A stretch of 60,373 nt of DNA from Ruminococcus sp. (GTDB lineage Bacteria; Bacillota; Clostridia; Oscillospirales; Ruminococcaceae), in NCBI GenBank assembly GCA_017397925.1, contig JAFQHO010000014.1, forward strand, positions 1 through 60,373, read 5' to 3'. A model generated the notes under the pieces. It did no database searches, was not told where the DNA came from, and saw only the letters and a program-made list of their open reading frames with translations. Below, piece after piece: positions 11,663 through 22,358 of the stretch. Numbering within the stretch: position 1 is the first letter of the stretch; each line of letters starts with the position of its first letter. Both the position numbers and the translations under genes were made by a program.

Positions 11663-11809
11663 ATTAATCTGCTATTTATAAAAATATATTATTTGACAAA
11701 TTCCGATTTATCTGTCCGAACCAACCTCGCGCCAGACGTTCCCTCTGGACTCCCTTTGCGTGACGGCTGTTTAGACACTGCTTTCTGTTATAAAAAGACC
11801 AAAGAAAAT

Positions 11810-11851: not shown

Positions 11852-11863
11852 TTATTCCCACTC
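11852..11863. repeat. Attachment site 2 (internal, between tandem elements)
   Basis: TTATTCCCACTC, the 12-bp core shared with sites 1 and 3. The bases on its left differ from those at 1 and 3. It divides the insertion into a 1.2-kb left relic and a 9.5-kb right element. Confidence 0.65.
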
Positions 11864-12180: not shown

Positions 12181-12209
12181 TTGACTTTCTACTATTGTTG
12201 TGCTATAAT
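12181..12209 (+). promoter_or_regulatory. Promoter of the RiPP-like operon
   Basis: TTGACT (12181-12186), 17-base spacer, TATAAT (12204-12209): a near-consensus promoter 66 bases before the peptide gene. Confidence 0.8.
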
Positions 12210-12216
12210 AAAAATG

Positions 12217-12243
12217 GTATAGTAGAATTCAACACTACTATAC
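12217..12243. promoter_or_regulatory. Dyad operator in the RiPP operon leader
   Basis: GTATAGTAG (12217-12225) and CTACTATAC (12235-12243) form a perfect 9-bp inverted repeat with a 9-base spacer at the transcription start. A third half-site CTACTAT lies in the promoter spacer (12189-12195). Three phased half-sites around a promoter point to a repressor, though an mRNA hairpin is also possible. No dedicated regulator gene lies in the operon. Confidence 0.65.
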
Positions 12244-12274
12244 AAACATTTTTGCTACTAAGGAGTTGGTATTT

Positions 12275-12469
12275 ATGAACGCTACCGAATTTGATTATAA
12301 GGAATTATATGGAAATATCAATAAAGATGAAGACATTATTTGTATGTCAAAGTGTCGCTGTGTAGCGTGTAATAGATGTTCTTGTGGAACATGCGAAAAA
12401 TGCATAAGTCAGTGTACTGGATGCGTGAGTAATGATATTTCCATGGAGCTTGAGTGGGAGGCAGTTTGA
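12275..12469 (+). CDS. Cysteine-rich RiPP precursor peptide
   Basis: 64 residues with ATG at 12275, nine bases after AAGGAG. An acidic, Cys-free leader (residues 1-22, with FDYKELYGNINKDED) is followed by a core with ten Cys at positions 23, 27, 29, 32, 35, 37, 40, 43, 47 and 50, then an acidic tail (SMELEWEAV). There is no signal peptide. Its TGA overlaps the ATG of a radical SAM/SPASM protein, so translation is coupled. Such Cys-rich peptides beside SPASM maturases are RiPP substrates, often with thioether links; it resembles the CLI_3235-type clostridial peptides. A Cys-rich metal-binding protein is the alternative. Confidence 0.75.
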   Translation: MNATEFDYKELYGNINKDEDIICMSKCRCVACNRCSCGTCEKCISQCTGCVSNDISMELEWEAV

Positions 12470-13875
12470 TGATTAAACTCTCTCGCTTTACACATACATT
12501 TGACTTAGGTGATTCAGTTGCTCTTTATCATTCACTTCGTATGAAGCCAGTTTATTTGGAGAGAGATACTTATCAGAGCTTGCAGGAGTGGCTTGCAAGC
12601 TCTTTTTGTATTGATCTTAACAATGCTCCAAAAAATATAAAGGATGAGGTGCAGCTACTAAGAAAATGCAAGATACTTACGATATCAGATGATGAAGATG
12701 ATAAAGTTTTGGCATTTATAAGATCTCGTATAACCCGTCCTGCCATAAGTGTATGTTATATGATTCTAAGTGAACAGTGTAATTTAGCTTGTAAGTATTG
12801 CTTTCTAGGTAATAACGATACTTTAAAGAGAAAACAATTTGAATTGAAGAATATGTCAGAAGATACTGCTGACAAAGCGATTGATTTCTATCTTGCTCAA
12901 CTTAAAAAATCTGGATTAAATTTTGAACACCAGAAGCCAGTTGTGATTTTTTACGGCGGCGAACCCATGGTCAATTACCCTACTCTGCTCCATATCGCTT
13001 CAAAGCTCAACGAACTTAAGAAGACGGAGCCTATATTAAAGAATCTCGAATTAACTATGGTGACTAACGGTATTCTTTTGAATGAAGAAAGAATAGAAAG
13101 ATTAAATGAACTTCATGTTGGTATCGGTATTTCTATTGATGGCTTTTCAGAGGAAGACAATTCGATGAGAGTGGACAGATTTGGGAAACCGATTTTTAAT
13201 GAGCTTTTAGAAATTCTTTCATTGTTAAAAAAGCATAAAGCTGATTTTTCGCTTTCAGTAACTCTTAACGAGGAAACAATAAAACATAAAGATAGTGTAC
13301 TTAAACTAATAAAGGAATATAATGTTAGATCGTTTGGTTTCAATATAATGATGTCGAGCGATACGTTTATTGTTCCAAATTCATATAATGAAGCAGCAGC
13401 CAAATTTATTATTGACGAATTCATCGAATTAAGAAAGCTGGGAATATATGAAGATAGAATGATGAGAAAACTTGATGCTTTTACGAAAGCACAAGTTTAT
13501 TATTCAGATTGTGCTGCCACGGCAGGTGGACAAATTGTTATTGCACCTAATGGACAAGTAGGAATTTGTCACGGATGTCTTTATAATAAAAAATATTTCG
13601 TGACAGATGTTAATGATATTGATTTTAATTGTATTGAAAATGAATACTTTATAGAGTGGTCACAGCTTACTCCGATAAATCATGAGGAGTGCCTTGATTG
13701 CTCTGCTCTTGGAATATGTGGAGGCGGTTGTCCGATAAATGCTATGTATTTAAAAGAGGGAAATACTATTCATTCGATTGATACTCGATTTTGTACACAT
13801 TCAAAAATGACCCTTGACTTTCTGATTCGAGATTTATATCGAATTATATGTGACAGGAGAAAAAAAGATGATTGA
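12469..13875 (+). CDS. Radical SAM/SPASM peptide maturase
   Basis: 468 residues. The first 80 or so could be a peptide-recognition (PqqD-like) domain (LSRFTHTFDLGDSVALYHSL). The radical SAM motif is CNLACKYC (Cys 104, 108, 111), followed by VVIFYGGEPMVNY (the GGE motif) and ISIDGFSEEDN. The C-terminal SPASM part shows YYSDCAATAGGQIVIAPNGQ, GICHGCL and CLDCSALGICGGGCPINAMY, ligands for two auxiliary [4Fe-4S] clusters. Length and order fit the CcpM type of Cys-rich-peptide maturases. It presumably installs thioether or related cross-links on the ten-Cys peptide encoded just upstream. Start ATG overlaps the peptide stop; GGGAGG precedes it. Confidence 0.88.
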   Translation: MIKLSRFTHTFDLGDSVALYHSLRMKPVYLERDTYQSLQEWLASSFCIDLNNAPKNIKDEVQLLRKCKILTISDDEDDKVLAFIRSRITRPAISVCYMILSEQCNLACKYCFLGNNDTLKRKQFELKNMSEDTADKAIDFYLAQLKKSGLNFEHQKPVVIFYGGEPMVNYPTLLHIASKLNELKKTEPILKNLELTMVTNGILLNEERIERLNELHVGIGISIDGFSEEDNSMRVDRFGKPIFNELLEILSLLKKHKADFSLSVTLNEETIKHKDSVLKLIKEYNVRSFGFNIMMSSDTFIVPNSYNEAAAKFIIDEFIELRKLGIYEDRMMRKLDAFTKAQVYYSDCAATAGGQIVIAPNGQVGICHGCLYNKKYFVTDVNDIDFNCIENEYFIEWSQLTPINHEECLDCSALGICGGGCPINAMYLKEGNTIHSIDTRFCTHSKMTLDFLIRDLYRIICDRRKKDD

Positions 13876-15994
13876 CACTATTGATGTATGGGGAGTTGAA
13901 ACCAACAACCTCAAAAACATTGATGTCAGCCTTGAAAAGCACGCTATCAACTTAATTATCGGACCGTCTGGAAGTGGTAAATCCTCACTTGCCTACGATA
14001 CTGTTGCACAAATTGGTCAACATGAGTTTATGTCTATGTTTGCTGATGACGCTTCCGATCCTACCTATAAGGTAAAAGGGTATCGTAATATGTTGGCTGC
14101 TGTTCCGTTGAAGCAAGCCAATTATAACAATAATATGCGTTCAACCATTGGCACGTATTTCGGCATCAATAGGTATATAGGATTTATTTTCTCAGTTATA
14201 TCGGGTGTTAGCGAAGATTTCTTTGTTCTAAACCGGGAGAGCAATCTTTGTGAAGTATGTCACGGTATAGGAACTGTTAAGGAGCTGGATGTTAATAAGC
14301 TGATAAGCTTTAATACTAAGCTTAAAGATAATCCTGTAAGGTGTTGGGACAGATATAAGGATTTCTATCGTAGTATCATTGAAAAGTTTTGCAATGAAGT
14401 CGACATTGATTCTAACAAGACGTTTAGAGAACTTACTGATAAAGAAAGGCAGACATTCCTTTACGGGGAAAGTAAGTCAAAGTATCAGATTCTTTATCAT
14501 AAGGTAAATTCTAAATCGAGTCGTACTACAAAGTTTTACGGCGTAATGTGTGAGAAGCCACTTATTGTTGGTGCAAGCATAAGTGATAAATACTATTCTG
14601 ACACGGTATGTCCACACTGCCAAGGAAAGAAATATGCTTCCTCCCATGATGAAATCAAAGTTGGCGGCGTATCTATCGGTGAATATATGATTACACCTTT
14701 TGCTGATCTATTAAAAGTCAATAAAGCTATTAGAAAAAATAAAAAAATTGAATCGTTGACTTTTGCATTAGATGCTATTGATACATTTTTGCAGAAAACT
14801 ATTGATTTTAATCTTGGATACCTGTTTTTCAATCGTTCTATCCCAACGCTTTCAGGCGGAGAGCTTCAGCGCTTGCGTATGGTGCAGGTATTTAACACTC
14901 AGTTGACAGATTTGCTGATTGTTCTTGATGAGCCGTTAGCTGGCTTATCAGGCAAAGAAAAAAAGAAAATATTTGATAGTATTATTGAACTTAAAGATAA
15001 ACATACCCTTGTTATCGTGGATCATACCGATATATTTGTAAAATCCGCTCATACAATCGTTGCACTTGGCGAAAAAAGCGGAAGAAATGGCGGTTATCTG
15101 ATTGATGCACAACAATATATCGAGAAACAGAAAATTCCGATGTTAGAACTTGAGCATACTCTCGGTTTACCCATAAAAGTTGTACTGAACAGCAAGATAT
15201 ATCAGTATAATGGTGTTGATATTGAGCTCTCGGAAGGTTGCCTCAATCTCATCACAGGTGCATCTGGAATTGGAAAATCAACATTGATCAGAGAATATTT
15301 TCCACAGTTTTTTGAAAGTTATGCTTTTGTGAACCAGCGCCCGATATTAGGTAATAAGAATTCAAATGTGGCTACCGCATTAGACATTGCTACTGAAATA
15401 TTCAGTACGTTTGAAAAGAAATTCAAAAAGGAAAAGAATTATTTTTCAAACAATACTGGAAACGAGGGTTGTTGTCCATCTTGTTTAGGGGCAGGTTATA
15501 TTGAATATGGTAGTGAAAAGACTTCTGTATTGCGCCTTGAATGTGCCGACTGCGTTGGAACAGGCTTTAATAAGAATCTATCTAAGCATAAAATCAAGGG
15601 GCAATCCATATTTGATATATGGAGAATGACTGTAGATGAAGCAGCAGAGTTTTTTAAGGATATTAATCCTAAGATAACAAATGTATTAGAGAATGCTTCA
15701 TCAATATTGTTGGGGCATTTACTAATTGGCCAGCCTACATCTACGCTGTCAGGCGGTGAGAATATACGAATAAAGCTCTTAAAACTGCGGAACACCAAAT
15801 CCGATGTTCTTGGCATTGATGAGCCGTTTAAGGGGCTGAGCTTAACAGAAATACATAGCGTTGTATCATTCCTTATAGGTATGATAGTTAAAGGAAAAAC
15901 AATAGTTGTCATAGACCATAACGAAGAGGCTTTCCCGTATTTTGCAAAGCATATTGAACTTATATTAGATAAAGGCATATTAAAAGGGATTTGA
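13868..15994 (+). CDS. Short UvrA-like ABC ATPase (possible self-resistance)
   Basis: 708 residues against about 940 for UvrA. Two ABC modules are complete: GPSGSGKSS (32-40), LSGGELQRLRMVQ and LIVLDEPLAGLS; then GASGIGKST, LSGGENIRIKLLKL and VLGIDEPFKGLS. Zinc modules are CEVCHGIG with CPHCQGKK, and CCPSCLGAGY with CADCVGTG. The missing length lies mainly in the insertion regions that contact UvrB and DNA. The ATG overlaps the maturase gene by eight bases. UvrA-like proteins (DrrC and relatives) give self-resistance to DNA-binding antibiotics, so it may protect the producer or act on the peptide product. This role is an inference. Confidence 0.85.
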   Translation: MIDTIDVWGVETNNLKNIDVSLEKHAINLIIGPSGSGKSSLAYDTVAQIGQHEFMSMFADDASDPTYKVKGYRNMLAAVPLKQANYNNNMRSTIGTYFGINRYIGFIFSVISGVSEDFFVLNRESNLCEVCHGIGTVKELDVNKLISFNTKLKDNPVRCWDRYKDFYRSIIEKFCNEVDIDSNKTFRELTDKERQTFLYGESKSKYQILYHKVNSKSSRTTKFYGVMCEKPLIVGASISDKYYSDTVCPHCQGKKYASSHDEIKVGGVSIGEYMITPFADLLKVNKAIRKNKKIESLTFALDAIDTFLQKTIDFNLGYLFFNRSIPTLSGGELQRLRMVQVFNTQLTDLLIVLDEPLAGLSGKEKKKIFDSIIELKDKHTLVIVDHTDIFVKSAHTIVALGEKSGRNGGYLIDAQQYIEKQKIPMLELEHTLGLPIKVVLNSKIYQYNGVDIELSEGCLNLITGASGIGKSTLIREYFPQFFESYAFVNQRPILGNKNSNVATALDIATEIFSTFEKKFKKEKNYFSNNTGNEGCCPSCLGAGYIEYGSEKTSVLRLECADCVGTGFNKNLSKHKIKGQSIFDIWRMTVDEAAEFFKDINPKITNVLENASSILLGHLLIGQPTSTLSGGENIRIKLLKLRNTKSDVLGIDEPFKGLSLTEIHSVVSFLIGMIVKGKTIVVIDHNEEAFPYFAKHIELILDKGILKGI

Positions 15995-16000
15995 TTAAAA

Positions 16001-16031
16001 ACAAGGCAGTCAGAAATATTGACTGCCTTGT
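16001..16031. terminator. Terminator closing the RiPP operon
   Basis: ACAAGGCAGTCA (16001-16012) pairs perfectly with TGACTGCCTTGT (16020-16031) around seven bases, with A5 before and a mixed T-rich sequence after. It separates the plus-strand cargo from the minus-strand mobility genes and could serve both. Confidence 0.75.
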
Positions 16032-16066
16032 TGCTATATTGACGACTATTTCTTTATGCTATATCA

Positions 16067-16482: not shown

Positions 16483-17486
16483 CTATTCTAATTCAAATCT
16501 ATTGGTTGAATTAAATTTTGTCTTTTCATATTCGGCTTTCAAACCGTATTTTTCAATAACTATCATTGCTCTTTTCAGCTTGCGTGTTAAATCTTCTTGC
16601 TTTGAAATTCGCTGACTCTCTTTACTCAGATTTTCACGTGAGAAAGTCGCAGGCTGTCTGTATTTTTCAAGTTCAGCATTTTGCTTTTCTGCAAGCTTTC
16701 TCAACTCTGCATTTTCTTTGCGAAGTTCAGCATTTTCGGATTTCAGCTTTTTTGTTTGTTTTGTACTTGTAACGTGCTTTTTCGCCAAGTTAGAAAGAGT
16801 TTCATAATCCTCTTTTGAAACAGTAACCTTGCCGCCGAAAACAGACTTTTTCGTTTCAACGCTGTCAATATCTATCAGCTTATATTCAGCACTTCAACCT
16901 CAGCTGCTCTCCAACGGGCAATAGATTGTTTACCCGTACCGTATCCCATTTCTTCCAAAGCCTTTGCAATACCATTTTGGATATCCTGCCCACGTTTGTG
17001 GTGTGCTATGGGGATATAATCAATGTGAAGATGCAGTGTAGCTTCATCCATATGCAGAACTGCATTGAAAACATAAAAGTTTGGATTTCTTGATTGAAAA
17101 TCTTTCATATATTCTTTCAGACATTCTGCAACAAGTTCAGCATCCTCTGTACCAACTCCCGAATCATCCATTTTACCAATTTGTACAACGTCCTCGTAAA
17201 AGCTTTTTCGTTTGTCGGCAGCTGTAACAACTGTATTTGACGGTTTCTGATGAAATAAACTTTCATAATATGTACCGTGAATTTTTCTGTCATTTCGCTT
17301 TTGTTTTGCATTATAACGCTCTGTCGATTCAGCGAAAAGCTGGTCGTAAGCCTTACCCAAATCCTGACGGATAAATGTAACATTATCCTTGATTCTGTTT
17401 CGGTCAATATTCTCCGCAATGAATTCCCGATTATTATGTGTAAGGCTGCCCTTACCCTGACAGAACGAAATTCTCTTTTCTTTCAT
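16483..17486 (-). pseudogene. MobV/Pre-type relaxase, frameshifted
   Basis: Reading from 17486, the first frame starts MKEKRISFCQGKGSLTHNNR and contains the metal-binding motif HMDEATLHLHIDYIPIA of plasmid recombination/mobilization relaxases; it stops at 16875. The protein continues in another frame from about 16890 (AEYKLIDIDSVETKKSVFGG, KVTVSKEDYETLSNL) into a coiled coil (LKSENAELRKENAELRK) ending at 16483. One inserted or deleted base near 16885-16895 explains this. Unless it is a sequencing error, the relaxase is truncated to 203 residues, which keeps the catalytic motif but loses the C-terminal coil. Confidence 0.8.
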
Positions 17487-17775
17487 AATTCACCTCATTT
17501 CATATTCACAATGGGCAAGCACAAACCGTCACGATTGATTGATGAGAGTGACGGCAGTGTGCTTGCGATAAGACGGCTCAAAGAGCCGTGTTTTACAAAA
17601 GGCTACGCCATTTGTAACGCCATAGTACTTGTGACGGGGAATTCTTCCTCCATCACAAATACAGGCGCTCTTTGAGAAGCAGCCGTTCCCTCTGCACTCC
17701 CTTGCGTGACGGTTGGTGACAGTTGTGACGGTTATTTTATACCGCCACAAAAACCGTCACAGCCGTCACGAACTG
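17487..17775. other. oriT-like region with CCGTCAC repeats
   Basis: Between relaxase and RepA-like genes lies a two-part hairpin: GCAAGCACA (17515-17523) with TGTGCTTGC (17558-17566), and inside it CCGTCAC (17526-17532) with GTGACGG (17548-17554). A second hairpin, ACGGCTC/GAGCCGT, is at 17573-17589. The CCGTCAC/GTGACGG heptamer then recurs several times to 17780 in both orientations, suggesting iterons. The position and structure fit the transfer and/or replication origin of the IME. Confidence 0.6.
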
Positions 17776-18927
17776 TCACGGGGATTCACTCACTAAGTGA
17801 AATTCAAGAAATCTGCCCTCGTGATTTTTCGTATAACGATAACTTATTCCGTAGTCATTCAACAATTTTCCTGCATTGACATTCAGCTTTTTCGTAAGCG
17901 AATTAACAGGAATATCCACCTGCAAAATTTTCGATAAATCAGTTGCATTTCCAATCCAATCCGGAGTATCGTTTGTAATCAATTTTGCTATTTCATCAAG
18001 CAATGGTTCAGCAGGTTCTTTCCATAATTCATTTTCCACACGTTCCAAATCCCAAGCAAGTGTTTGTTCATTACGGATAAGATGAAATTTTCTGTCTTGT
18101 TGGTCACGTCCTGAAATTTCAAGAACAGCATTTCTGCCGGTGCGTTTTTCTTTGTGAAGAAGAAATGCACCGTCAGCTGCTCCAAGCAATCCATTTGTTC
18201 CCGAAATCATATCAAATCCGTCATCTGCTTTTTGCTTTCTTGTATGATGAACAAGCAACAGGCATATTCCCATACTGTCGGCAAAAGATTTCAATTGCGT
18301 TATTATTTCATAATCCTTTGCATAGCTGTAATTATCGCTGTCACATTCACGGACTTTCTGCAAGGTGTCTATAATAATAAGATTGGTATCAGGGTGATTG
18401 GTTATGAAACTTCGCAGCTGTTCATTTAAACCTTGTCCGAGTGATTTTGAAGCTACTGAAAAGAAAAGATTTTCAGTCATTTCTGTACCAAACATTCTGT
18501 AAAGTCTTGCCTGTAAACGCTTGTAATCATCTTCCAAAGCAAGATAAAGTACTGTTCCTTTGCGGACTTCGCAATTCCACATAGATGTCCCCGAACTTAC
18601 GTGATAGGCTATCTGTGCCATCATAAAGCTTTTACCGACTTTCGGAGAGCCAACAAACAGATAAGTTCCCGGATAAAGCAGACCGTCAATAATTGGTGCT
18701 TTACCAGTATACACCATTTCATAAAGTTCAGGCATCGATATCGTTTCAATGTAATTCGGATTCATCTTATTGAGCATTTCTATCTGCTTTCGGGCGAAAT
18801 ATTCAGCTTCAGGGTTGCAATTTTTCTTAGTTTCTGTTATAATAGTATTGGTAAAGTTATTGAATGACTGCTCTGCACCTGCGTCAACAGGTGCATACGG
18901 AGCGGTCATTTCTTCTTTTATAGTCAT
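17776..18927 (-). CDS. RepA-like AAA (RecA-fold) ATPase
   Basis: 383 residues. GTYLFVGSPKVGKSFMMAQI holds the Walker A motif, LIIIDTLQKV the Walker B, and LLLVHHTRKQKADD a sensor-like strand; VLYLALEDDYKRLQARLYRM is typical of RSF1010 RepA-like hexameric helicases (AAA_25). The C-terminal 90 residues look like a winged-helix DNA-binding part (GNATDLSKILQVDIPVNSLT). It follows MobC-like and integrase genes with two-base spacing, and faces the iteron-like repeats, so it may drive autonomous replication of the excised circle. Confidence 0.82.
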   Translation of the reverse strand: MTIKEEMTAPYAPVDAGAEQSFNNFTNTIITETKKNCNPEAEYFARKQIEMLNKMNPNYIETISMPELYEMVYTGKAPIIDGLLYPGTYLFVGSPKVGKSFMMAQIAYHVSSGTSMWNCEVRKGTVLYLALEDDYKRLQARLYRMFGTEMTENLFFSVASKSLGQGLNEQLRSFITNHPDTNLIIIDTLQKVRECDSDNYSYAKDYEIITQLKSFADSMGICLLLVHHTRKQKADDGFDMISGTNGLLGAADGAFLLHKEKRTGRNAVLEISGRDQQDRKFHLIRNEQTLAWDLERVENELWKEPAEPLLDEIAKLITNDTPDWIGNATDLSKILQVDIPVNSLTKKLNVNAGKLLNDYGISYRYTKNHEGRFLEFHLVSESP

Positions 18928-18929
18928 TC

Positions 18930-19250
18930 TTATTCTCCTTTCAAGCCGTAGAGTGTGGTGTTGATTAAGCGTATTGTTTCAAGCAGTTCGGTATCAATAT
19001 TTGCACCGTTTTCTATTCTTTTCAGTTCTGCAAGAACCTCAGCAAGCTGATTTTTCAGAGCCTTATACACTCTCGGATTACCCTGTACAACAACATCACG
19101 GCAGAGAAGTCGTTTCACGATATAGTCTTGTTTTGTCATTCCCGAAAGAGCCACCGCTGAGTTTATCAGCTTGTCTTCTTCGGGCGAGACACGGAAACCG
19201 ATGGTTCTCGCCCTGAACCGTCCCTTGCTGTCAAGATTCTTTGCTGACAT
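18930..19250 (-). CDS. MobC-like relaxosome protein
   Basis: 106 residues from the ATG at 19250, preceded by a perfect GGAGGTG. ARTIGFRVSPEEDKLINSAV followed by LSGMTKQDYIVKRLL is the ribbon-helix-helix pattern of MobC/plasmid mobilization accessory proteins; the rest is helical. It overlaps the 3' end of the integrase gene by 20 bases. It probably binds the nearby oriT-like region and assists the relaxase. Confidence 0.72.
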   Translation of the reverse strand: MSAKNLDSKGRFRARTIGFRVSPEEDKLINSAVALSGMTKQDYIVKRLLCRDVVVQGNPRVYKALKNQLAEVLAELKRIENGANIDTELLETIRLINTTLYGLKGE

Positions 19251-20328
19251 TAAAATCACCTCCCTTCTTCAGCTCACCGAGCCTATTCGCCATCTCCGCC
19301 TGCTTGGACGGGAACAGATGTGCATAACGGTAGGTGATTTCGATACTCTCGTGTCCTACACGGTCAGCGATTGCAACCGCCGAGAAGCCAAGCTCAATAA
19401 GTAGGGAAACGTGACTATGACGCAGATCGTGGATACGAATACGCTTTAATCCGGTTGCTTTCACACCTCTGTCCATTTCGTGATGCAGATAGCTTTTGGA
19501 TATGGGGAAAAGGCGGTCATCAGGCTTCTGGTCATACAGCATATTGATGTATTCTTGCATTTCATCACAAAGAAAATCGGGTATTTTGATTGTGCGGTTA
19601 CTTTTCTTGGTCTTGGGATCAGTGATGACATCCTGATTCTTAATACGCTGATAGGACTTCGAGATAGTGACTGTCTGATTCTTGAAATCAAAGTCCTCAG
19701 CTGTGAGAGCAAGCAGCTCACCGAGACGGATTCCGCACCAATACAACATCTCAAACGCATAGTAGGAGAGAGGCTTATCCATCATCACTTCGGAGAATTT
19801 CAGGTACTCGTCCTTTGTCCAGAAGTTCATTTCTTTGGCATTTTTCACGCCGATACTTCCAGCTTTGGCGGCTGGATTGGCACTGAGATCATAGAATCGG
19901 ACAGCAAGATTAAAGATACAAGAAAGCTGATTATGCAGATTTTTCAGATAGGTTTCAGAATAGGGCTTGCCATTTTTATCACGATAACGAAGAAGTTCAT
20001 TCTGCCACGAAAGAACGTCCCTCGCCTGTATGTCTTTCATACGCTTTTCCCCGAAATAGGGGAGTATCTTCGACTTGATGACATAAGCTTTATGCTCCCA
20101 TGTATTCTGTTTCAAGCGACTTTTCATATCCTCCTCATAGAGCTTATAAAAGTCCTTGAACAGCATATCCAGATCACCATTCTGCTGGAGCAGAAATCTT
20201 CGCTCCCAGTCCTGAGCTTCACGTTTGGTAACAAAGCCACGCTTACATTTTTGCTTGCGTTTGCCATCCCAGTCATCATAACGTACCATAGCATACCATG
20301 AGCCGTTTTTATCTTTATGAATTGACAT
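19231..20328 (-). CDS. int: Tyrosine integrase of the guaA element
   Basis: 365 residues. An AP2-like arm-binding N-terminus (GSWYAMVRYDDWDGKRKQKC), SAM-like core-binding domain (about 55-150) and catalytic domain with CGIRLGELLALT (Arg), HDLRHSHVSLL (His-x-x-Arg), HESIEITYRYAHL (His and the Tyr nucleophile). The start codon overlaps the stop of the excisionase-like gene. Its location about 1 kb from the guaA 3' end, whose sequence is repeated at the other boundaries, identifies it as the recombinase that inserted the element there. Confidence 0.93.
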   Translation of the reverse strand: MSIHKDKNGSWYAMVRYDDWDGKRKQKCKRGFVTKREAQDWERRFLLQQNGDLDMLFKDFYKLYEEDMKSRLKQNTWEHKAYVIKSKILPYFGEKRMKDIQARDVLSWQNELLRYRDKNGKPYSETYLKNLHNQLSCIFNLAVRFYDLSANPAAKAGSIGVKNAKEMNFWTKDEYLKFSEVMMDKPLSYYAFEMLYWCGIRLGELLALTAEDFDFKNQTVTISKSYQRIKNQDVITDPKTKKSNRTIKIPDFLCDEMQEYINMLYDQKPDDRLFPISKSYLHHEMDRGVKATGLKRIRIHDLRHSHVSLLIELGFSAVAIADRVGHESIEITYRYAHLFPSKQAEMANRLGELKKGGDFNVSKES

Positions 20329-21368: not shown

Positions 21369-21389
21369 TCTTGTTTATTATTCCCACTC
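21369..21389. repeat. Attachment site 3 at the 3' end of guaA
   Basis: Identical over 21 bases to 10611-10631. It covers the guaA stop codon and last three codons plus nine bases downstream, so the insertion leaves the guaA coding sequence intact. The 12-bp core is also at 11852-11863. Confidence 0.8.
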
Positions 21390-22358
21390 AATAGTACCAA
21401 CAGGCTTAGGAGTGAGGTCATAAAGGACACGGTTAATACCCTCAACTTCAGCAGTAATACGAGCTGTAATCTTGTGGAGGAGAGCGTAAGGAATTTCCTC
21501 AATAGTAGCGCTCATAGCATCTGTAGTATTGACAGCACGGATAATAGCTGGCCAACCCTCATATCTCTTGTCATTCTTTACACCAACGCTCTTCATATCG
21601 GGAACAGCGATGAAGTACTGCCATACAGTCTGATTAAGACCTGCAATATCGAATTCCTCGCGGAGAATAGCGTCAGCCTTGCGGAGAGCATTAAGACGGT
21701 CACGAGTGATAGCACCGAGGCATCTTACGCCAAGACCAGGGCCTGGGAAAGGCTGACGGTCAACCATTTCAGCAGGAAGTCCAAGAGCTTTACCAACTAC
21801 ACGAACCTCGTCCTTGTAGAGGAGCTTTACAGGCTCAACAAGCTCAAACTGCATATCTTCCGGAAGTCCGCCGACGTTGTGGTGAGCCTTTACGCCGTCG
21901 CTTTCGAGGATATCGGGGTAGATAGTACCCTGAGCAAGGAAAGAGATACCCTCAAGCTTGCTTGCTTCCTCGTCAAATACCTTGATGAATTCACCGCCGA
22001 TGATTTTACGCTTCTTTTCAGGAGCGTCAACGCCTGCGAGAAGGTCAAGGAAACGATCTGTAGCGTCGATGTAGATAAGGTTAGCGTCAAGCTGGTTCTG
22101 GAAAACCTCAATAACCTGCTCGCTTTCGCCTTTACGCATAAGTCCGTGATTTACGTGAACGCATACCAGCTGCTTGCCGATAGCCTTAATAAGGAGAGCA
22201 GCAACAACTGAGCTGTCAACGCCGCCTGAAAGTGCAAGCAGAACTTTTTTGTCGCCTACCTGAGCTTTAACAGCAGCAACCTGCTCGTCTATGAAAGCGT
22301 TAGCAAGTTCGGGGGTAGTGATACGTACCATTGTATCAGGTCTTTTGTTTGAATCCAT
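21378..22358 (-). CDS. guaA: GMP synthase ATP-PPase subunit (split type)
   Basis: 326 residues, lacking the N-terminal class I glutaminase domain of the usual ~510-residue enzyme. The PP-loop is LLALSGGVDSSVVAALL (about 41-57); PFPGPGLGVRCLG and the C-terminal KPVGTIEWE are GuaA signatures for the dimerization domain. It amidates XMP to GMP with ammonia, which must come from a separate GuaA glutaminase subunit or free ammonium. Start ATG follows GGAGGAAAT. A 5-bp hairpin (CCGGC/GCCGG) lies in the leader. The 3' end serves as the IME attachment site. Confidence 0.92.
   Translation of the reverse strand: MDSNKRPDTMVRITTPELANAFIDEQVAAVKAQVGDKKVLLALSGGVDSSVVAALLIKAIGKQLVCVHVNHGLMRKGESEQVIEVFQNQLDANLIYIDATDRFLDLLAGVDAPEKKRKIIGGEFIKVFDEEASKLEGISFLAQGTIYPDILESDGVKAHHNVGGLPEDMQFELVEPVKLLYKDEVRVVGKALGLPAEMVDRQPFPGPGLGVRCLGAITRDRLNALRKADAILREEFDIAGLNQTVWQYFIAVPDMKSVGVKNDKRYEGWPAIIRAVNTTDAMSATIEEIPYALLHKITARITAEVEGINRVLYDLTPKPVGTIEWE

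Follow-up and report, generated by a model that had tools for sequence, protein, structure and literature searches.

The 60,373-nucleotide stretch of contig JAFQHO010000014.1 from a Ruminococcus genome (GCA_017397925.1), here called the window, carries three overlapping genes that form a single operon and encode a cysteine-rich peptide, a radical S-adenosylmethionine (SAM)/SPASM maturase and a UvrA-like ATPase (P0003; Table 1). The ATG of the maturase gene at 12469 overlaps the TGA of the peptide gene by one base, and the ATG of the UvrA-like gene at 13868 creates an eight-base overlap with the maturase gene. These overlaps, the length of the peptide and the positions of its cysteines (23, 27, 29, 32, 35, 37, 40, 43, 47 and 50) had been noted in an earlier reading of this DNA, here called the original prediction, and were all confirmed from the sequence.

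Table 1. Features of the operon and of the mobile element that carries it (window coordinates; att, attachment site; NBD, nucleotide-binding domain; SAM, S-adenosylmethionine).
Feature	Position	Strand	Details
Left att repeat TTATTCCCACTC	11852..11863		Exact 12-bp copy of 21378-21389; homology to locus L002 starts at 11852
Sigma-70-type promoter TTGACT-17 nt-TATAAT	12181..12209	+	Read from sequence
9-bp inverted repeat GTATAGTAG-9-CTACTATAC, possible operator	12217..12243		Directly 3' of the -10 box
Ribosome-binding site AAGGAG	12260..12265	+	Read from sequence
Precursor peptide	12275..12469	+	64 residues, 10 Cys; B-type leader and core, then A-type motif CISQCTGC (single-peptide variant)
FibroRumin radical SAM/SPASM maturase (P0002)	12469..13875	+	468 residues
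UvrA-like ATPase (P0003)	13868..15994	+	708 residues; lacks UvrB-binding domain; insertion domain, Zn modules 2 and 3, two intact NBDs
Terminator-like stem-loop, 13-bp arms	16000..16032		3' of the operon; read from sequence by eye
Relaxase remnant (Mob_Pre)	16875..17486	-	L002 copy is one 408-residue frame
NikA-like mobilization protein	18930..19259	-	Lies between the two repeats
Tyrosine integrase of the element	19231..20328	-	Phage_integrase, 1.3e-21
Right att repeat	21378..21389		Within the 3' end of guaA (21378-22358, minus strand)

The maturase is readily assigned, as it scores 734.5 bits against a cut-off of 400 with TIGR04136, the NCBIfam equivalog for the FibroRumin system radical SAM peptide maturase. 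The cysteines of its CX3CX2C motif (C104, C108 and C111) are kept in 27/27 maturases, and so are those of the auxiliary clusters (C348, C367, C408, C411, C417, C421 and C442). With the Pfam SPASM model it stays below the cut-off (13.7 versus 21.5), and it is 20-21% identical to the SPASM maturases TigE (8vpo) and 5wgg, which we take to be CteB. Residues 1-38 of the peptide match TIGR04135 with an E value of 6.6e-8 and 32.4 bits, below the cut-off of 45.

A scan of genome contigs yielded 31 loci with relatives of the maturase. At all 21 loci where it is at least 56% identical to that of the window (L002-L022), the following gene encodes a protein 52-99% identical to P0003. When the window itself, a Campylobacter plasmid (L036) and the genomes G340 (L040) and G1172 (L049) are added, a UvrA-like gene stands directly downstream on the same strand at 25/25 loci, with a spacing that ranges from a 17-base overlap to a 153-base gap (the start in L036 being that of the annotation). 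This gene consists mostly of N in L006 and runs off the contig in L007 and L014. For ten distant maturases (L023-L032; 29-46% identical in the best segment), no UvrA-like gene was found in the stretches fetched, some of which are short. According to their records, the 25 loci span Bacillota, Synergistota, Spirochaetota, Bacteroidota, Actinomycetota, Pseudomonadota and Campylobacterota, with those from Spirochaetota and Bacteroidota known from metagenome bins only.

In three overlapping whole-genome samples, maturases above the TIGR04136 cut-off were present in 2 of 391, 2 of 398 and 4 of 396 genomes. These correspond to seven distinct genomes including that of the window (three of them apparently being loci L002, L004 and L014 again), six with an adjacent UvrA-like gene and one without (G567, locus L041). 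In the reverse direction, 394 genomes of the order were searched with P0003 at E values of at most 1e-150. Two had a relative, namely the genome of the window and G340, and in both the gene lies beside a maturase. Among plasmids, 143 records match at 1e-60, of which one is 50.8% identical while the other matches listed reach at most 30%; the 50.8% match adjoins genes annotated as a FibroRumin maturase and as two FibroRumin peptides on the Campylobacter plasmid, where the UvrA-like gene itself is annotated as a hypothetical protein. Searches that started from P0003 thus came upon its clade at three places, and a maturase is adjacent at 3/3.

Conserved co-occurrence of the three genes, on which the original prediction had been staked beforehand, is what we found at 25/25 loci, and its view that they belong together stands. 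The partner that it had called unusual is instead near-constant among FibroRumin systems (25/25 close loci), and neither the norm of two precursors nor the fusion described below had been visible to its reader. We give next to no credence to a chance neighbourhood with the UvrA-like gene as a passenger: two diverged loci without this gene would fit it, but linkage at 25/25 and 3/3 speaks against it and refutes it for maturases that are at least 56% identical.

The surroundings of the loci share little else. Among clusters of open reading frames (ORFs) of at least 80 residues from the flanks of 26 loci, the maturase is present at 26, the UvrA-like protein at 23 and any other cluster at no more than five. 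A Pfam scan of 93 of the 111 flank ORFs from 19 loci, all at least 110 residues long and within 6.5 kb, returned no family at more than three loci among the best 25 of 103 families (the commonest being MobA_MobL), and no exporter or peptidase family common to two or more loci among the same 25. Single, unrelated transporters may be present near single loci. The absence of an exporter or protease stated in the original prediction also holds for the neighbourhoods, in that no such family among those listed is common to them. The common unit consists of the peptide or peptides, the maturase and the UvrA-like ATPase.

At 21 of the 25 loci, two short precursor genes, A followed by B, lie 5' of the maturase gene. 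The A precursor carries C-x-x-QCTGC-x-C and mostly a further CxC (L018 has QCAGC and lacks the first cysteine), and the B precursor mostly has CACVACNSCTCACSC. Profiles of the loci, from which L014 was left out as near-identical to L013, show conserved leaders and cysteine-rich cores. A single peptide is present in the window, L002, L040 and L049, and in each of them a B-type leader and core are followed by CISQCTGC, the start of an A core. With cysteine positions fixed, this motif arose in 0, 0, 1 and 2 of 200,000 shuffles of the four fused peptides, a test for which a longer stretch was shuffled in L002 and the motif was picked after being seen. In the maturase tree, the four fused systems cluster together with an unstarred support of 92/72 (96/86 for a subset of three). 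Because the fused peptide reads B then A while the separate genes stand A then B, it is not the product of a plain deletion between the two genes. Where two genes are found fused in certain species, joint action of their products is commonly suspected, and the fused peptide points in this direction for A and B. Some loci carry additional tandem precursor genes with further cysteine patterns, i.e., four in L016 (3291-4225) and three in L007 (593-1112).

Against the UvrA model, P0003 scores 341.3 bits (E value 1.4e-101), and because this lies under the cut-off of 729.8 we call it UvrA-like rather than UvrA. It is shorter than the genome's own UvrA (708 versus 939 residues) and lacks the UvrB-binding domain, since its residues 111 and 116 align to residues 115 and 264 of Thermotoga maritima UvrA. 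It has an insertion of 116 residues and matches Pfam UvrA_DNA-bind (2.9e-11), and the eight zinc cysteines and the key residues of the ATPase motifs are kept in 22/22 UvrA-like partners. These counts and the tree below exclude L006, L007 and L010, in which the gene is interrupted by N, cut by the contig end and broken in frame, respectively. The best fold match of the predicted structure of P0003 is Ecm16.

Related UvrA-like proteins occur in a second type of peptide operon. An Acinetobacter plasmid (L052:3526-8121) encodes a 66-residue peptide rich in Cys, Ser and Thr without a match among Pfam or NCBIfam models, two ThiF-family adenylyltransferases and a UvrA-like protein, and this operon adjoins a BREX system. 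A Moraxella plasmid (L072:2050-6654) carries a corresponding set of four genes, the two peptides being 55% identical to each other. In a tree of 23 UvrA proteins that includes 13 of the 25 FibroRumin UvrA-like proteins and neither Ecm16 nor DrrC, these 13 and the two ThiF-operon partners stand together (100/100), to the exclusion of the full-length UvrA from the genome of the window and of seven short UvrA-like proteins for which "class II" is our own label. One of the seven (L076) is presumably SgcB2 of the C-1027 cluster, judging by the adjoining enediyne chromoprotein. A clade of the FibroRumin partners and the seven short proteins is rejected (approximately unbiased test, p 4.25e-5), and so is a tie between the ThiF partners and these seven (p 1.5e-5), in tests whose groups were named after the tree had been seen and among which the FibroRumin and ThiF groups have long branches. 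The common grouping of FibroRumin and ThiF partners is therefore provisional.

The UvrA-like proteins of the window and of R. albus 8, a system with an A and B pair, share 92% identity, while the maturases are 65% identical. In 100-base steps, DNA identity between the two is 0.51-0.70 throughout the maturase gene; it is 0.97 where the UvrA-like gene begins and 0.75-0.96 in the later steps of that gene. A clade that unites the window's maturase with those of L002 and the R. albus group is rejected (p 0.001), as is one of the UvrA-like proteins of the four fused systems (p 6e-58). Because the UvrA-like gene of the window is of the R. albus type and its maturase is not, we conclude that the UvrA-like partner has been exchanged. 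This exchange between systems with different peptides speaks against the idea that the ATPase has the cysteine-rich product and not DNA as its target, e.g., that it serves as the product's chaperone, assists in its release or loads it with a metal or cluster. The insertion domain offers a point in its favour, as Trp160 and Cys175 are present in 15/15 UvrA-like partners of both peptide operons and in 0/8 other UvrA proteins compared (Cys159 in 14/15 of the partners), but the zinc modules, the insertion domain and the fold of DNA-binding UvrA are all retained, and we consider such a role distinctly unlikely.

Exchange probably extends to the precursor as well. All 25 differences between the peptide genes of the window and L002 (25/25) fall within 12301-12394, which covers the last portion of the leader plus the B part, and none into the A part. 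The ratio of nonsynonymous to synonymous differences (pN/pS) is 0.14 for the peptide gene and 0.10 and 0.14 for the other two genes, and the synonymous difference pS is 0.446 versus 0.028 and 0.027, or ca. 16-fold higher. Diversifying selection on the peptide was considered and rejected, because pN/pS is 0.14 and the synonymous difference is high too; the pattern resembles a replaced tract, and the B part appears to have been replaced in one of the two copies. Replacement of a core segment between two close copies, like precursors with conserved leaders and cysteine-rich cores, would suit a secreted bacteriocin that leaves through a host exporter while the UvrA-like gene repairs damage caused indirectly. 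The loci have no exporter or protease in common, however, and we hold this explanation to be very improbable.

Two diverged loci, L023 and L041, carry a gene for a superfamily 2 (SF2) helicase of 806-814 residues (L023:6957-9398 and L041:5294-7711) upstream of the precursors and maturase, with an HNH domain found by Pfam only in L023. This hints at another DNA-acting partner in these two diverged loci. A general helicase-HNH partnership was rejected, as among 291 genomes only G567 itself had it, and for the two homologues on Deinococcus plasmids an incomplete gene table lists neither a peptide nor a radical SAM gene within 4.5 kb. Near the distant maturases L025, L027, L028 and L032, from bins of candidate phyla and archaea, we noticed by eye a frame with an HExxH metallopeptidase-like motif.

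The window operon is part of an integrated mobilizable element of ca. 9.5 kb that is bounded by a 12-bp direct repeat and located at the 3' end of guaA (GMP synthase; GMP_synt_C match), so that the placement on a mobile element in the original prediction is borne out by integrase, mobilization genes and flanking repeat. The junction of L002 bears the identical 12 bases TTATTCCCACTC, and because window and L002 stay similar past the right repeat, their comparison fixes only the left edge. The element also encodes an AAA_25 ATPase and a helix-turn-helix regulator; its relaxase gene is broken in the window, where ca. 220 bases of L002 are missing. No empty attachment site was found in 60 genomes of the genus, in which the one long match to the left flank (G1514) lies near a contig end. 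Two stretches of the window, 11729-11769 in the left chromosomal flank and 17680-17781 inside the element, match the same place in G1514. Spread by phages was considered and rejected, with no relative of P0003 or P0002 in viral_contigs and no maturase in phage records at 1e-20; the matches of P0003 in phage records are at most 29% identical in the 15 of 30 that were listed. At the DNA level, nothing in E. coli genomes matches the Kosakonia locus.

A promoter-like match lies 93-94 nt 5' of the first peptide gene in the window, L002, L012, L013 and L021. The inverted repeat at 12217-12243 has one arm altered in L002, and an additional half-site, CTACTAT, sits between the -35 and -10 boxes of the operon promoter. 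SOS control through LexA was rejected as a candidate, because 24 upstream stretches of up to 320 nt each contain no GAACN4-6GTTC or CTGTN8ACAG site.

We tentatively read the locus as a mobile, self-contained cassette for a ribosomally synthesized and post-translationally modified peptide (RiPP), a variant of FibroRumin, with a DNA-directed product and self-protection by the UvrA-like protein, and give this reading close to an even chance. Crosslinking by the maturase and DNA binding by the UvrA-like protein are what their families suggest; from there, we infer that the product targets DNA and that the ATPase protects the carrier. This inference gains from the match to Ecm16, the conserved zinc and ATPase positions and the ThiF-type operon with its related UvrA-like protein. 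The maturase would bind the leader (Y-x-x-L/M-L/F/Y-G-x-I) and install thioether-type crosslinks on the cysteine-rich cores, of which A and B would act as a pair that the lineage of the window makes as one peptide. The product would then bind DNA or a DNA-bound complex inside cells. A dimer of the UvrA-like protein might scan DNA, recognize product-bound DNA via the insertion domain, a mode demonstrated for Ecm16 and echinomycin, and displace the product with ATP, so that the carrier is protected. Release could occur via lysis or general host exporters; alternatively, the product might act only inside its carrier, either against incoming DNA or as an addiction module.

Several observations weigh against this reading. 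No exporter is linked to the cassette, which would be odd for a secreted toxin, and no LexA-type box precedes the operons in the 24 upstream stretches. In L010, the UvrA-like frame is broken while peptides and maturase are kept, which, if no assembly error, fits poorly with an immunity that is essential. L023 and L041, with maturases 39-42% identical to that of the window, have A/B-like precursors and no UvrA-like gene, and the L041 maturase scores above the TIGR04136 cut-off all the same. Class I UvrA structures fit the P0003 model nearly as well as Ecm16 does, P0003 is placed apart from the seven short UvrA-like proteins, among them that of the C-1027 cluster, and the genome retains its own full-length UvrA, next to which a repair duty of the second one is possible.

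The main rival, which we think unlikely, is a conflict system directed against phages or plasmids, in which the modified peptides would stay intracellular and the UvrA-like protein would be a sensor or effector on foreign DNA, i.e., a weapon and not a shield. No exporter or protease family is common to the neighbourhoods, the cassette is found on mobile elements and on a plasmid, toxin-antitoxin and Abi-like genes lie near some loci, the ThiF-type relative adjoins BREX, two diverged loci carry a helicase protein instead, and P0003 matches PADLOC mad3 over residues 12-407 (E 2.7e-41). However, hits to numerous PADLOC models are usual for ABC ATPases (P0003 has 20), the defence-like neighbours vary between loci, and none of the families listed for the three proteins (the best 25 of 42 for P0003) is a nuclease domain.

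With more doubt than for the DNA-directed cassette, we also entertain a broader reading in which the UvrA-like proteins of these operons form a distinct class dedicated to ribosomal peptides, separate from repair UvrA and from the Ecm16/DrrC type. At least two unrelated chemistries would then make mobile DNA-directed peptides with a guardian or partner, namely SPASM radical SAM enzymes on cysteine-rich precursors and paired ThiF enzymes on precursors rich in Cys, Ser and Thr, both without a linked exporter.

To our knowledge, DNA is a rare target among RiPPs. The near-constant UvrA-like partner is a first functional clue for FibroRumin and points to DNA as the target, while the naturally fused cores hint at the parts that cooperate and the naturally exchanged UvrA-like gene shows on what the ATPase does not depend. 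The function is directly testable with three genes. Among open-licence papers, we found none on FibroRumin, TIGR04135 or TIGR04136 and no description of a UvrA-like partner of a radical SAM RiPP.

Compared with known systems, the operon is closest to FibroRumin: its maturase belongs to the TIGR04136 equivalog, its leader resembles TIGR04135, and the annotated FibroRumin locus of the Campylobacter plasmid has the same gene order. It differs by one fused precursor with ten cysteines in place of two, and because this precursor scores below the TIGR04135 cut-off we file the operon as a variant and not as a full member. The ThiF-type operon resembles it in having a small precursor, modifying enzymes and a UvrA-like ATPase as the last gene, on plasmids typed as mobilizable, but uses ThiF adenylyltransferases instead of a radical SAM enzyme, a different precursor and a UvrA-like protein that is 29% identical. 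Short UvrA-like self-resistance proteins include Ecm16 as well as DrrC and SgcB2, which are named in PMC10192343 and PMC10413001 (SgcB2 in the latter). Like them, P0003 lacks the UvrB-binding domain, has zinc modules 2 and 3, the insertion and two NBDs, and is encoded next to biosynthetic genes; it differs in that it groups apart from the seven short UvrA-like proteins of the tree, carries Trp160 and Cys175 in the insertion domain, and is linked to a product that is a ribosomal peptide.

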